From assembly GCA_003050565.1 (NCBI GenBank), contig PEBW01000005.1, forward strand, positions 1 through 64,000: DNA of 64,000 bases, given 5' to 3'. The DNA comes from Brockia lithotrophica. Lineage in GTDB: Bacteria > Bacillota > Bacilli > Thermicanales > DSM-22653. The position numbers and the translations under genes were made by a program. Shown here piece by piece: positions 2,757 to 8,333 of this stretch (its first letter is position 1; each line of letters begins with the position of its first letter). The notes below the pieces were generated by a model that did not search any database, was not told the DNA's origin, and saw only the letters and a program-made list of their open reading frames with translations.

Positions 2757-3188
2757 ATGAGAAAAAAGTTCAGGAAACCGCGATCCCGGGCTACGTGTCG
2801 TCGACCACGGGTTTGGCCCACAATCGTCTGGAACGTCATGCCGCCGTTTTGTTTGGGTCCCGCATTTCACGAAGAGCTCTTTCCCAACGTGACCGTCACG
2901 TACGAACGACAGGAACTTCTCGCCCAGCGAACCGCTCTCGACACGATGTACTCCTACGCCGTCGTGAACCGAGGAGAAGCCCCCGTACTCGCGCAAGTGG
3001 AGATCAGTCCGGACGGTGTGCATTACGCTCCTGACGAATCGATGTCCATCCAACCTCATGCCACCGGGGTTCTTGTCCCCAAACGCTACCTGCGCTACAC
3101 GCGTCTCGTTTTGCGCACCCCGCAGGCTGCACAGGTGAGTTTGGTCGACGTCTACTTCCAGGCGCAGACGCGCGTTCAGCCCAACTGA
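2757..3188 (+). CDS. small surface-type protein, DUF6385-like
   Basis: The 143-residue product shares its C-terminal half with the next gene: a 'YSYAVVNRGEAPVLAQVEIS' block, PDGVHY, then LVPKRYLRYTRLVLR and DVYFQAQT at the end. From memory this matches DUF6385, a small beta-sandwich-like family found in Bacillales next to glycosyltransferases. The function is unknown. The start is uncertain. The ATG at 2757 follows GAGGGGGGAGC but gives an Arg-rich N-terminus. Met28 (2838) is an alternative start, and an overlapping frame from ATG 2753 could mean an old frameshift. No signal peptide is seen. It heads a plus-strand cluster with a homologue and two glycosyltransferases. Confidence 0.6.
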   Translation: MRKKFRKPRSRATCRRPRVWPTIVWNVMPPFCLGPAFHEELFPNVTVTYERQELLAQRTALDTMYSYAVVNRGEAPVLAQVEISPDGVHYAPDESMSIQPHATGVLVPKRYLRYTRLVLRTPQAAQVSLVDVYFQAQTRVQPN

Positions 3189-3284
3189 GCCTTCGCACCC
3201 AAGACCATGAAGGGAGACACGGTCATTCTGGTAAGGACGGGAAAATAGAGACTTGGGACTTCATCACACAGGGGGTAAAGTGCT

Positions 3285-3959
3285 ATGCCAAACTACTCCG
3301 TCTTTAACCTTCAGCCGGAAGAACTCAAAATTCTCGTCTACGGGGCTCACAGCACAGGACCTAAGCCGCTCCTCGTGGACGACACGGGTCAACTCCACGT
3401 CGCAAGCGTCACGGTGACCGCTGAAACCATCGAAGCAATCCTCGGGGGTACGCTCGACGCCGTCCTCGGCACCACGGTCTCCGCAGGTACGCTCGACGCC
3501 GTCCTCGGCACCACGGTCTCCGCAGGTACGCTCGACGCCGTCCTCGGCACCACGGTCTCCGCAGGTACGCTCGACGCCGTCCTCGGCACCACGGTCTCCG
3601 CAGGTACGCTCGATGCCGTTGGGCAGATCCTGTACAAAAGTTTCTTCGAACAAAGCTTCCTTAACGTCGTAACCGGAGACACCCTCACGCCGCTTCCGGC
3701 GATCACGACCGGTGTACTCGGCCTCTCGAGTTTCTTTATCTACAATGCAGGGACCAACGGCGCTCTCGCCCAGGTGCAAATCAGCGCCGACGGCGTGAAC
3801 TGGTTCCCGGACGTGGTACCCACTGCCCCGATCATCGGCGGAACTGTGAGCGTACTCGTGCCTACTCGCTTTCTCAAGTACACTCGCATCGCCTACCAAT
3901 CTGCCGTCGCCGGTCTTCCTACCACGCTTGACATATACTTCAACGCCCAGGGAACATGA
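3285..3959 (+). CDS. DUF6385-like protein with tandem repeat
   Basis: The 224-residue product has three parts. Residues 1-55 are a short N-terminal domain (MPNYSVFNLQPEELKILVYG). Residues about 55-112 hold four perfect copies and one partial copy of a 13-residue repeat, GTLDAVLGTTVSA. The C-terminal 110 residues are homologous to the previous protein, with VQISADGVNWFPD, LVPTRFLKYTRIAYQS and DIYFNAQG. The repeat is rich in Thr, Ser, Gly and Ala and could be a stalk or an O-glycosylation target. That is an inference, supported only by the two glycosyltransferase genes directly downstream. The ATG at 3285 follows AGGGGGTAAAG. There is no signal peptide, so a spore-surface or non-classically exported protein is possible. 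Confidence 0.65.
   Translation: MPNYSVFNLQPEELKILVYGAHSTGPKPLLVDDTGQLHVASVTVTAETIEAILGGTLDAVLGTTVSAGTLDAVLGTTVSAGTLDAVLGTTVSAGTLDAVLGTTVSAGTLDAVGQILYKSFFEQSFLNVVTGDTLTPLPAITTGVLGLSSFFIYNAGTNGALAQVQISADGVNWFPDVVPTAPIIGGTVSVLVPTRFLKYTRIAYQSAVAGLPTTLDIYFNAQGT
3447..3620 (+). repeat. 39-bp perfect tandem repeat, 4.5 copies
   Basis: Units start at 3447, 3486, 3525 and 3564 and are identical base for base. A partial fifth unit (3603-3620) differs at one base. The period is 13 codons, so copy-number changes keep the frame. Confidence 0.97.
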
Positions 3960-4007
3960 CCACCGTTCTCCTTTCCTCCCGATCGCCGTAGCCTACCCCA
4001 AACGTAG

Positions 4008-4036
4008 CCCCGTGCTGTTTCCCGGCACGGGGTTTT
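4008..4036 (+). terminator. terminator after the DUF6385-like genes
   Basis: Eight-pair stem CCCCGTGC/GCACGGGG (4008-4015 with 4025-4032), a 9-base loop, then TTTT. The tail is short, so read-through into the downstream glycosyltransferase genes is likely. Confidence 0.6.
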
Positions 4037-4116
4037 CCGTACCGAGGAGGGTGCCCGCCGGAGCTTCTATCTCCGAGATCAGACGACCGGCACGGGGTTT
4101 TCCGTACCGAGGAGGG
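4022..4116 (+). repeat. 30-bp direct repeat with ribosome-binding site
   Basis: Exact 30-base copies at 4022-4051 and 4087-4116, spaced 65 bases apart. Each holds the right arm and T-tail of the terminator plus a GAGGAGGG Shine-Dalgarno sequence. Only the second copy is followed by a start codon (ATG 4123). Confidence 0.9.
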
Positions 4117-4122
4117 ACGGAA

Positions 4123-5478
4123 ATGGACGAAGGTGTTCGATTGTCCGAAGTTCCCAAACGAGAAGCGTTCCTTCTTTCCGTGGCAATGATCGTCCGAGAC
4201 GAGGCGGAAAAACTGCCCCGCGCCCTTACGAGCGTTCGCGACTTCGCAGACGAAATCGTGGTGGTCGACACGGGATCCGCGGACGACACGTCGGAAATTG
4301 CCGCCGCCCACGGCGCCCAAGTGTTTTCCTTCCCCTGGCGGGGAAGCTTTGCAGAGGCGCGAAACGCCTCCCTTGAACGCTGCAGGGGAAGGTGGATCCT
4401 CGTGTTGGATGCGGACGAGTGGCTCACGACCGAATCCGGTCCCGCCCTCCGCGAACTCCTCGAACGAGAAAAACGAACGCCCTGCTGCGAAGCTTACCAG
4501 GTGCGCATCGTAAACCTCGTAGCCGACGCCATGGGCGAGCCCCGTCGTCTCGCTCACTTCGCCGTTCGGCTTTTCCGGAACAACCCCGCCTACCGCTTCA
4601 CCGGACGCGTACACGAGCAAATCCTCCCCTCCATCCTGCAGCACGCTTCTTCCCGCCATTCGTACGTCGTCGGTACCGCTCCGATAGAACTTCTCCACGA
4701 TGGCTACAAACACGTGGCAAAGGACAAGGTGATGCGCAACCTCGAACTTCTCGAACGCGAGTGGGCGGAAGATCCCGCCAATCCTTTTACCGCATACAAC
4801 CTAGGCGTTGAATACCTGCGCCTCAAAGACACGGAACGGGCAGTGGAGTTCCTGGAACGGTCGATCGCCCTCTCCCCGCCGCGCATGGCCTATCTCCCCC
4901 TCGCCTACCGCTACCTCGCCCACGCGTATGCCTCGAAAGGGGATCTTTCCAACGCCCTGAAAGCGGCGACGCGGGGAACGGAAACCTTCCCCGACGCACC
5001 GGACCTCTGGCACCTCAGGGGAGATCTCGCCTGGCGGGCGAAAGACGTGCCCGCGGCCCGTCAAGCCTACCTTGCGGCTTACGCCTTGGGCAATCCTCCC
5101 CCCGGGTATCCTCACGAAGAAGGTCTGGGCACTTACCGAACGGCGTTCGCCCTCGGGCGACTCAACGAAGAAGAAGGAAACGCTGAAGGAGCCGTCACCT
5201 GGTACATGCGCGCCTTACGACACCGCTCCAACGACGCAAAAGTCCTTGCCGCCCTCTTTCGACTCGTTGCCCGTACGTGGGGCGAAGAAGCCCTCCCGCG
5301 CTTCGTCCTCACCCACCTCCGAGCACAGGACGAAGACGCGTGGGAATTCCTCGTACGTCTCCTCAAGCTCCTCGGCCACACCCGTCAAGCCCAAGCCTTA
5401 CGCCGCGAACTTCGCAAAAGGGAAGTTAAAACGGCCGAAAAAGGGGGCTCGGGAAAGCCCGAAAACAGCGTGCCGTAG
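4123..5478 (+). CDS. GT2 glycosyltransferase with TPR repeats
   Basis: The 451-residue product has an N-terminal family 2 glycosyltransferase domain: LSVAMIVRDEAEKLPRALTS near residue 18, DEIVVVDTGSADDT for the nucleotide sugar, and the DxD-like LDADEW. It continues with Glu- and Ala-rich helical repeats typical of TPR from about residue 220 onwards. This architecture belongs to a group of inverting transferases that includes SunS-type protein glycosyltransferases. The frame stays open back to 3928, but that would overlap the previous gene. The ATG at 4123 follows GGAGGG and makes the better start. It is followed after 41 bases by a second, larger transferase of the same kind. A role in modifying the upstream DUF6385-like proteins is inferred from position only. 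Confidence 0.8.
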   Translation: MDEGVRLSEVPKREAFLLSVAMIVRDEAEKLPRALTSVRDFADEIVVVDTGSADDTSEIAAAHGAQVFSFPWRGSFAEARNASLERCRGRWILVLDADEWLTTESGPALRELLEREKRTPCCEAYQVRIVNLVADAMGEPRRLAHFAVRLFRNNPAYRFTGRVHEQILPSILQHASSRHSYVVGTAPIELLHDGYKHVAKDKVMRNLELLEREWAEDPANPFTAYNLGVEYLRLKDTERAVEFLERSIALSPPRMAYLPLAYRYLAHAYASKGDLSNALKAATRGTETFPDAPDLWHLRGDLAWRAKDVPAARQAYLAAYALGNPPPGYPHEEGLGTYRTAFALGRLNEEEGNAEGAVTWYMRALRHRSNDAKVLAALFRLVARTWGEEALPRFVLTHLRAQDEDAWEFLVRLLKLLGHTRQAQALRRELRKREVKTAEKGGSGKPENSVP

Positions 5479-5519
5479 AGGACTTCGGAAACGACGTCGA
5501 AAGCAAAGGGGGATCCGCC

Positions 5520-8333
5520 TTGCCGCTTGCGTCCCAAAGTCCTCCCCGCCTTTCCCTCGTGATGATCGTCCGCGACGAAGCCGAGCTCGTTGCCGAGGCG
5601 ATCCGCTCGGCACTTCCGTACGTAGATGAGGTCGTCGTCGGAGACACCGGGTCCACCGACGCGACGCCGGAGATCGCCGCTTCCTTCGGAGCGCGCGTCG
5701 TCACCCTTCCCTGGGAAGACGACTTTTCTCAGGCGCGCAACCGAGCCTTGGCGTACGCTCGGGGCGATTGGATTTTGAGCCTCGACGCCGACGAGCGAAT
5801 TCGTGAAGGCGATCCAGATGCCCTGCGGCGCACGCTCGCCCGGCGAGATCTCTGGGGAGGGATCGTGCGCATCTATCACCGCCTCGATCCTCCATCGGCA
5901 GGTGCGTGGGACAACGTTTTGCGCCTCTTTCGCAACGATCCGCGCGTGATTTTCGAAGGTCGCATTCACGAAACGGTCGATGCTTCGCTTGCCCGGATTC
6001 CCGACACGAAGGTCCTTCCCGTACCCCTTGTCGTCGAGCACCTGGGCTATCTCGATGCAGTTGTCCGCAAAAAAACGAAAACAGAACGCAACCTCCGCCT
6101 CCTCGAAATCGCCCTGGCCGAACGCCCCCTCGATCCGCGCCTGCACTACGCTCTTGGCACGGAGTGGTTTGCCCTCGGGCGGTATGCGGAGGCCGAACGC
6201 GCCTTCCGCAAGGCCCTCGAACTCCTCGAAGGAGAACCCTCCTATCTCCCCGATCTCGCCCTCAAGTTCCTCTTCACGCTCTTCGCCGAGGGGAAGACGG
6301 AAGAATCCCACGAGTGGGCCCGGCGCTTTCTCGAGCGATTTCCCGATTTCCCCACCCTCTGGGAGATGTACGCCCAGCTCCTCCTCCGGCACGGAAAAGC
6401 AGAAGAAGCCGTACGCGCCGCCCGCGCGGCTCTCGCTTTGGGTCCTAAAACCGCCTACGCCATCCCAGAAGGATCCGGGAGTTTCCTTGCCTACTCCCTG
6501 CTCGCCCAAGCTCACGCGCGTCTTGGTAACGCGGAGGAAGCACTGGCGGCAAGCCGCGCCGCAAGAGAAGCATATGCGACAGCAACCGAACGAAACGGCG
6601 GCCCCGCATCTCTTTCCGCCGAACTCTTCGCCCTGCCTTTCCTCCTTCGCATCCTCGAACAAAACTCCGAAAGCTCGGCCCTCTTCCTCGGAACTTCGCC
6701 CATCCTGTACCAATCCCTGTACGCAGTACTTCGCGAACTCAGCACTGCAGGTGTCCTCACTCCGCCGCTTCTCTTTCGTCCGCTCGTGGGCCAAAAGCTC
6801 ACTTCAAAAGTACCCTCTGCCCGTGTGGCCGTGGTGAGCGACGGAAGGCGAGAACTCTCCTCCGAAGACCTGCGGCGGGAGATCGAGAACATCCTAAACG
6901 CCGGAGTAGAAACCGTGTACGTCGTGGAGCCCTTTTCCGAATACTCGGGACCGAGGATCCACCTCACCGCGCTTGCCACATGGGAAACCTCGCGAATAGA
7001 CGTGACCCCTCCTCCTCTCCCGCCCCAGTCCGTGACAAAACCCTCCGCCCGGGCTTCCTCGGGGAACACGGGCATCCGGAATTTCGTACACGTGTACCGC
7101 ATCTCTCGGCCGCCATCCTTCGCTCCGATTCCCCCGGACTCTCTTTGGGAAAATTGTCCTGAAGCTACCGCCACGTACGTCCCCGAAGAATTTTTGACAA
7201 CCAAAGACCGACAAGCCGCAGAGCCCGATCGCCGGGGAACCGAGAGGTCAACGGGATGTGGTGTCCCGCGCTCGCCTCTCACCATCGGCTACGTACTTCC
7301 CCACCACGCGCCGACGGGAGGGCTCAAAGTCCTCCTCGACCACATGCGCCTCTTGCGCCGCCTGGGCCACCGCGTAATCGCCTTCTATCCGGGAGACGGC
7401 GAGCGTCCGGCGCTCCCTCCTTGGTATCCCTTCACAGCTGAAGAAAAACCCGAAGAAGTCTACCTCGACCCCCGACGCTCCCTACCCGAACAGCTCGACG
7501 ACCACGACCTCGACGTCGCCGTCCTCGGGTGGCTGGAACACCTCGTCGGCGCGGAGAACGCGCGCACTCCCCTCCTGTACCTGGAACAAGGACACCCTTG
7601 GCTCTTTCAGGATATCCCTCCCGCTTACGACCACCGCGTGCGCCTTTCGCTTTTGCAGTTCTACCGAACGCCCGTGCTCCTCGCAACCGTTTCTCCCTTT
7701 CTCCAAGACATCCTCCGTAAGCGCTACGGCCGCAAGAGTGCCCTCGTCCCCAACGGCGTCGACACAGACCGCTTCCGGCCGAACGAAGAAATCCGGAGCG
7801 CAAACGACCCCCCCACCGTTCTCCTCGTCGGCTCCCCCCATCGTCCCTTTAAGGGAACAGACGTGGCCCTGCGCGTCCTCGACCGTTTGTGGCAGGAAGG
7901 CCTGCGCTTTCGCCTTCTCTGGATCAGCCCCGACCCTTTTCGCATTCTCTACGCCCCCTACCCCGCCGAGATCGTCGTCGATCCGCCGCAGGAGAAGCTT
8001 CCGCACCTGTACCAAAGTGCCGACGTTCTTTTGTTCCCCTCCTGGTACGAAGGTTTTGCCCTTCCCCCGCTCGAAGCGATGGCCTCCGGCGTCGCCGTCG
8101 TGGCAAGCGAGTGCGGAGGAATCCGAACCTACGCGCGAACGGGAGAAAATGCCCTCCTCGCACCTCCGGGAGACGCAGAAACGCTTGCCGCGTACGTGAA
8201 GAGGCTCTTGCGCGACGCACCCCTTCGCTCTCGCCTCATCCGGGCCGGACGCGCAACGGCGCGCGCCTTCGACCTCCGCCGCACGATCCACCGACTTGAG
8301 ACCGTCCTTCGCTGCGTAGCAAGAAAGAAGTAA
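5520..8333 (+). CDS. bifunctional GT2-TPR-GT4 glycosyltransferase
   Basis: The 937-residue fusion protein has three parts. Residues 1 to about 200 are a family 2 glycosyltransferase similar to the previous gene (LVMIVRDEAELVAEAI, VVVGDTGSTDAT, LSLDADERI). Residues about 200-370 are TPR-like helices. A poorly conserved linker reaches about residue 585. Residues about 590-937 are a family 4 transferase (IGYVLPHHAPTGGLKVLLD, VGSPHRPFKGTDVAL, and the nucleotide-sugar motif SWYEGFALPPLEAMASG). Two sugar transfers by one chain are likely. The start is TTG at 5520 behind AAAGGGGGGA. It appears cotranscribed with the upstream glycosyltransferase. The acceptor is unknown, and a surface protein glycan is an inference. 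Confidence 0.82.
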   Translation: MPLASQSPPRLSLVMIVRDEAELVAEAIRSALPYVDEVVVGDTGSTDATPEIAASFGARVVTLPWEDDFSQARNRALAYARGDWILSLDADERIREGDPDALRRTLARRDLWGGIVRIYHRLDPPSAGAWDNVLRLFRNDPRVIFEGRIHETVDASLARIPDTKVLPVPLVVEHLGYLDAVVRKKTKTERNLRLLEIALAERPLDPRLHYALGTEWFALGRYAEAERAFRKALELLEGEPSYLPDLALKFLFTLFAEGKTEESHEWARRFLERFPDFPTLWEMYAQLLLRHGKAEEAVRAARAALALGPKTAYAIPEGSGSFLAYSLLAQAHARLGNAEEALAASRAAREAYATATERNGGPASLSAELFALPFLLRILEQNSESSALFLGTSPILYQSLYAVLRELSTAGVLTPPLLFRPLVGQKLTSKVPSARVAVVSDGRRELSSEDLRREIENILNAGVETVYVVEPFSEYSGPRIHLTALATWETSRIDVTPPPLPPQSVTKPSARASSGNTGIRNFVHVYRISRPPSFAPIPPDSLWENCPEATATYVPEEFLTTKDRQAAEPDRRGTERSTGCGVPRSPLTIGYVLPHHAPTGGLKVLLDHMRLLRRLGHRVIAFYPGDGERPALPPWYPFTAEEKPEEVYLDPRRSLPEQLDDHDLDVAVLGWLEHLVGAENARTPLLYLEQGHPWLFQDIPPAYDHRVRLSLLQFYRTPVLLATVSPFLQDILRKRYGRKSALVPNGVDTDRFRPNEEIRSANDPPTVLLVGSPHRPFKGTDVALRVLDRLWQEGLRFRLLWISPDPFRILYAPYPAEIVVDPPQEKLPHLYQSADVLLFPSWYEGFALPPLEAMASGVAVVASECGGIRTYARTGENALLAPPGDAETLAAYVKRLLRDAPLRSRLIRAGRATARAFDLRRTIHRLETVLRCVARKK

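Follow-up and report, generated by a model that had tools for sequence, protein, structure and literature searches.

A DUF6385 locus with TPR-linked glycosyltransferases suggests a so far undescribed glycoprotein of the bacterial spore surface

A compact gene cluster of Brockia lithotrophica suggests that bacterial spores carry on their surface a sugar-coated protein that has so far not been described. The operon probably encodes a spore-surface fibre or glycoprotein that is made in the mother cell and O-glycosylated in its cytoplasm; glycosylation, location and assembly are inferred. What is observed is a gene set in conserved order, enzymes homologous to protein glycosyltransferases, a distribution confined to spore formers, a late-sporulation motif in homologues and a predicted jelly roll. 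To our knowledge, spore coating outside the Bacillus cereus and Clostridioides difficile groups is largely unknown. DUF6385 loci bring together concrete candidates for substrate and enzymes in easily grown spore formers (Paenibacillus, Bacillus methanolicus), and the lack of known protein acceptors for spore sugars has been pointed out (PMC7439481). For glycoengineering, they also offer repeat peptides naturally paired with cytoplasmic O-glycosyltransferases of inferred activity.

The B. lithotrophica genome (1.69 Mb) is available in 12 contigs, and the window analysed here is a 64,000-nucleotide stretch of one of them. A sequence-only reading had proposed two small paralogues followed, on the same strand, by a GT2-TPR enzyme and a 937-residue GT2-TPR-GT4 fusion. 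These open reading frames were confirmed, and both small proteins were assigned to DUF6385 by Pfam (PF19912; 2757-3188, E 4e-27, 94.5 bits; 3285-3959, E 3e-26, 91.8 bits), above the gathering cut-off of 26.8 bits. The features of the locus are as follows.

2757..3188, + strand: type-A DUF6385 protein, 143 aa, with a basic N-terminus containing two Cys, no signal peptide and a C-terminal DUF6385 domain (approximately nt 2940-3170)
3285..3959, + strand: type-B DUF6385 protein, 224 aa, with leader, repeat shaft and C-terminal DUF6385 domain
3285..3404, + strand: conserved leader MPNYSVFNLQPEELKILVYG of the type-B protein (family MPNFxxFNxNPDNLRTLIFG), common to type-B proteins of several classes
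3405..3620, + strand: repeat shaft of 13-aa units GTLDAVLGTTVSA (39-bp tandem array 3447-3619), proposed O-glycosylation substrate
3639..3956, + strand: DUF6385 jelly-roll head (model residues 119-224, pLDDT mostly >90)
4123..5478, + strand: GT2-TPR glycosyltransferase, 451 aa, with DTGSxD at 4267, DADE at 4408, HEQ at 4612 and TPRs at approximately 4792-5091
5520..8333, + strand: GT2-TPR-GT4 fusion, 937 aa, with GT2 at 5553-5810 (DADE at 5784), TPRs at approximately 6135-6455 and GT4 at approximately 7326-8255

Tandem Repeats Finder detected the repeat of the type-B gene as a 39-bp unit in 4.4 copies with 99% matches. The repeat described earlier as Thr/Ser-rich is real, with one point of wording: with three Thr and one Ser per 13 residues, about one third of the unit is Thr/Ser, without Pro or Cys, and it is not mucin-like. 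None of the four proteins contains a hydrophobic segment suggesting export or membrane insertion (highest 19-residue Kyte-Doolittle mean 1.48), so that the cytoplasm would be the place where the enzymes encounter their substrate. The ATG at 4123, behind an AGGAGG site, is the probable start of the first enzyme; an alternative, longer ORF starting with TTG at 3928 overlaps the DUF6385 gene. Directly upstream of this enzyme gene, a 29-base element CGGCACGGGGTTTTCCGTACCGAGGAGGG that includes a ribosome-binding site is present in two copies (4023-4051 and 4088-4116), the first of which overlaps a terminator-like hairpin. This arrangement may set the enzyme level below that of the substrate.

The type-B architecture, a leader (MPNFxxFNxNPDNLRTLIFGxD), a repeat shaft and a C-terminal DUF6385 domain, was found across the family. 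Across 67 type-B proteins, shaft length varies between 64 and 719 residues; on average, Thr makes up 25% and Thr+Ser 34%, and Pro and Cys are essentially lacking. In other classes, leader and head are conserved and the shaft is made of very different repeats, for example ITSTGLAITAPANGL, LLATVSNSTAASF, DATDLDIRDLDN...YGNDG or ARIFQSQRSNLQ. The N-terminus of type-A proteins is basic or Cys-containing in the window's class. In other classes, type-A partners may carry a CBM96 domain fused to DUF6385 (8 of 76 scanned DUF6385 proteins), and one type-A protein has a weak SPOCS/SipL-like segment, under the Pfam cut-off. At two loci (L212 and L213), CBM96-DUF6385 partners flank a single GT2-TPR gene and a type-B protein, which represents a minimal three-gene version. 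No paper naming DUF6385 was found in an open-access literature collection.

The sequence-only reading had linked substrate and enzymes by gene order alone. We retrieved 80 named loci with the type-B query. In nearly all of them, two or three GT2-TPR genes of the same strand begin within roughly 100 bases behind a type-B gene, which is usually accompanied by a type-A gene. This co-directional, close-packed order is found in Paenibacillus, Cohnella, Bacillus methanolicus, Kyrpidia, Hydrogenibacillus and Carbobacillus and, combined with different shafts, also outside this class, and its recurrence in nearly all named loci argues that the pairing of substrate and enzyme genes is not due to chance. 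Since this set is biased to Paenibacillus, further sets were tested. Among 24 DUF6385 genomes of the window's class (22 genera), 71 GT2-TPR hits (E<=1e-40) were obtained, of which 45 are no more than 10 kb away from a DUF6385 gene, against 0.43 expected; 19 of these genomes have such a neighbour, and 38 of the best 41 hits fall within this distance. In the other classes of the phylum, a GT2-TPR gene is present in 15 of 20 DUF6385 loci, and five lack one in the stretch read. The outcome that would have refuted the link, homologues occurring mostly without such transferases, was thus reversed, and the cluster is kept in most of the examined spore formers carrying DUF6385. The link is supported; glycosylation itself remains inferred. 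These counts were not corrected for shared ancestry, and ORFs and start codons in the other genomes were set by a simple longest-ORF rule.

The five genomes of this class without a nearby GT2-TPR gene differ in what they carry at the locus. In G217 and G288, a Maf/PseD-like transferase takes its place, and in G037 a double-GT2 enzyme and a TPR protein were found, while the locus of G377 is cut by the contig end. In G041 (L044, 8219-9574), the type-B gene looks frameshifted in the repeat, only the type-A DUF6385 is left and no glycosyltransferase was recognised among the sampled neighbours; the whole system is possibly decaying in this genome. Maf/PseD-like enzymes are present at eight DUF6385 loci; together with a legionaminic-acid-type pathway, they are often found where GT2-TPR genes are absent or supplemented. 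A flagellar role for these loci was considered and rejected, as the sampled flanking genes are not flagellar. In G217, a NeuB/NeuC/LegB/LegC/NeuD/CMP-transferase set, indicative of a legionaminic- or sialic-acid type pathway, lies beside DUF6385. DUF6385 pairs adjoin a Maf/PseD-like transferase and a pathway of this type at L149 (5685-18893), L150 and L158, where they are candidates for the acceptor and transferase of spore nonulosonic acids.

Two further gene sets accompany the operon. Upstream, a divergent pair of unnamed proteins with an MPNxSVFN leader and a ...WWE end was observed at L036 (6736-7872) and 47 other loci, mostly in Paenibacillus; it has an MPNxxxFN leader in common with the type-B proteins. 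The model of this family is jelly-roll-like, without a significant PDB match, and no member was found in the window genome by a search that lacked a positive control. Downstream, an opposite-strand set encoding a GT4, a small GT2 and an unnamed TPR-like protein was seen at L124 (15811-18752, minus strand) and about 50 loci, with conservation in Paenibacillus, Kyrpidia and Bacillus methanolicus. It possibly belongs to the same glycan pathway.

The nearest solved structures to the GT2-TPR profile are GmaR (1e-60) and SunS (3e-43); engineered TPR proteins also match, over the TPR part only. SunS is a peptide S-glycosyltransferase. GmaR adds GlcNAc to flagellin (PMC9638930). Both nearest relatives are protein glycosyltransferases, and sugar transfer by the window enzymes is inferred from them. 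Both window enzymes have the conserved DTGSxD, DADE and HE motifs and meet the criterion of a GT-A fold GT2 domain with a DxD motif followed by TPRs. The score for the NCBIfam SunS equivalog stayed below the cut-off (60 bits against 350), which indicates an enzyme related to SunS and not SunS itself. In a tree of 80 GT2 domains, clades follow gene position in the locus. The window fusion belongs to the third-position clade (groups of 13 and 18 rows, support 98/95 and 99/93) and the first window enzyme is weakly placed near the second-position group; the first-position clade has no window member. By inference, position-fixed clades fit different steps in the making of one glycan.

The window genome encodes SpoIVA and therefore belongs to a spore-forming line. 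In the window's class, SpoIVA was detected in all 50 DUF6385 genomes, compared with 268 of 398 genomes overall, and in the other classes in 36 of 38 (29 of 29 of good quality). This gives 86 of 88 DUF6385 genomes, the two exceptions being only 75-80% complete; here too, shared ancestry was not corrected for. The element CATAnnnTA was then found at -70 to -20 of 30 of 177 DUF6385 genes, about ten-fold above shuffled sequences (mean 3, maximum 9); mirrored or rearranged patterns gave at most 6 and the reverse complement 8. Outside the named loci it precedes 17 of 81 genes. The looser CATAnnnT was present upstream of 52 of 177 DUF6385 genes versus 115 of 1518 other genes (odds ratio 5, p 3e-15). 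Such -10 elements are common to sigmaE and sigmaK (PMC3789822). CATAnnnTA is absent upstream of the window's own genes, including the A gene at -70 to -20, and the full sigmaK pattern with AC at -35 showed no enrichment (3 of 79 only). The pattern GCCGTNNC-N14-18-CATANNNTA was not used as a genome-wide regulon marker because its counts were not above those of the reversed-pattern control; some conserved instances sit upstream of glycosyltransferase genes. Elsewhere in Paenibacillus genomes (L187, L194, L192, L172), a conserved promoter-like GCCGTTTC...CATAgaaTA precedes GT2 genes with a lysine/arginine-rich N-terminus, which are perhaps further spore glycosylation genes.

AlphaFold2 modelled the type-B protein with a confident jelly roll at residues 119-224, and with low confidence in the leader and shaft. 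In the PDB, Foldseek ranked the L-type endospore appendage protein Ena3A first (E 4.7e-5), ahead of Ena1B, Ena2A and Ena1C. The head could accordingly be read as a subunit that stacks, like those of Ena and F-ENA, into a polymeric spore pilus with A as the repeating subunit and B as its anchor or tip, or with these roles swapped, the sugars being mere decoration. F-ENA likewise pairs a short subunit with a long, shaft-bearing partner having the same C-terminal domain (PMC11952670), and the resemblance to F-ENA and F-Anchor keeps an appendage alive as an alternative. We nevertheless consider it unlikely. The window small proteins gave no Pfam match to DUF3992 or DUF4183 up to E 1, and the N-terminus of the window A protein is basic and not evidently hook-like. 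Moreover, non-polymerising jelly rolls match equally well: VIA-align of the head gave Z 11.7 for PBSX XepA, 11.1 for PirA, 10.8 for Ena1B (rmsd 6.2) and 8.0 for the F-BclA head, and GOLD domains also score on a par with the Ena matches. As the jelly roll is a common fold, similarity to Ena is suggestive only. Of the surface or spore appendage proposed earlier, the spore part is supported by distribution, promoter motif and fold (location being inferred), and the choice between an appendage and a nap or crust fibre is undecided.

Two other explanations appear far weaker. The GT2-TPR enzymes might act on another target, such as flagellin or a polysaccharide, and merely neighbour DUF6385, given that their closest solved relative modifies flagellin and that flagellin genes are present in the window genome; but the flagellin lies on a different contig (C8), the linkage to DUF6385 is close over several classes and hardly any of the best GT2-TPR hits lies away from a DUF6385 locus, which makes this very improbable. 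It is equally hard to believe in a vegetative cell-surface or prophage-derived fibre instead of a spore structure. The likeness to the prophage proteins XepA and YomS and the repeats, as in phage fibres, would fit, but there is no signal peptide, DUF6385 is found only alongside sporulation genes and homologues carry the late mother-cell -10 motif. As regards phage origin, a tblastn search against 50,697 phage records gave no match.

For the preferred reading, a cytoplasmically glycosylated spore-surface fibre, we propose the following mechanism. Late in sporulation, the mother cell would make the short (A) and long (B) DUF6385 proteins in its cytoplasm, neither having a signal peptide, with B composed of a flexible leader, a shaft of variable length and a predicted jelly-roll head. 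Soluble GT2-TPR enzymes would dock onto the repeat protein by their TPR superhelix and, with nucleotide sugars as donors, build O-linked glycans on Thr/Ser of the shaft, which the GT4 module of the fusion would probably extend. Attachment of the glycosylated fibre to the coat or exosporium of the engulfed forespore could then fall to the leader and the A protein. That the shaft is read and glycosylated in the cytoplasm of the mother cell, ahead of deposition of the fibre on the forespore, is inferred by analogy with SgtA and FlmG; glycosylation of B, the division of labour between the enzymes and the spore location are likewise inferences. A broader hypothesis, which we put forward tentatively and which may well not hold, is that a class of spore-surface fibres, unnamed until now and spread over the phylum, is defined by DUF6385 and has a common head and leader and interchangeable shafts (at least seven unrelated repeat types). 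Such fibres would be sugar-coated by a locus-encoded enzyme relay, either position-fixed GT2-TPR clades or Maf-like enzymes with legionaminic acid, and CBM96 partners would lock them together or onto the spore. If true, this would fill, in some lineages, the gap left by the unidentified acceptor and transferase of legionaminic acid on spores.

Parts of this system resemble known ones. The GT2-TPR enzymes are homologous to GmaR and SunS, their TPRs may serve as substrate reader as in FlmG, whose TPRs bind the substrate (PMC7591256), and Maf-like enzymes occur at some DUF6385 loci; the known targets of those enzymes, however, are flagellin or a bacteriocin and not spore proteins. In the sps pathway of the Bacillus subtilis spore crust, acceptor and transferase of legionaminic acid have not been identified (PMC7439481), and legionaminic-acid-type biosynthesis adjoins DUF6385 in some genomes. 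With F-ENA/F-Anchor (DUF4183) and Ena (DUF3992), the locus has in common small (here predicted) jelly-roll domains of spore formers and a fold match that is suggestive only and, for F-ENA, the pairing of a short with a long, shaft-bearing protein having the same C-terminal domain, whereas it differs by its Pfam family, its non-collagen repeat shaft and the dedicated glycosyltransferases in the operon. The preferred reading has its analogue in BclA3-SgtA of C. difficile, an exosporium glycoprotein with its O-GlcNAc transferase. SgtA, a GT2-TPR enzyme, modifies Thr of BclA3 repeat peptides with beta-O-GlcNAc, and its gene adjoins bclA3 (PMC7157674) and is sigmaK-dependent (PMC3789822). Both systems combine a GT-A (GT2) domain followed by TPRs with an adjoining gene for a Thr-containing repeat protein, of the spore surface in BclA3, and neither needs membrane export. 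In contrast to BclA3-SgtA, the DUF6385 locus has a repeat that is not GPT, two or three transferases instead of one and an A partner. The collagen-like GXY repeats of BclA are absent from the 13-aa repeat of the window, as is Pro, essentially, from the 67 shafts, and Pfam found no BclA-C (TNF/C1q-like) head in place of DUF6385, the fold of which is only loosely similar to the F-BclA head (Z 8). The DUF6385 system is therefore not a BclA, having no collagen repeat, a different head and several enzymes, but it is inferred to work like BclA3-SgtA.
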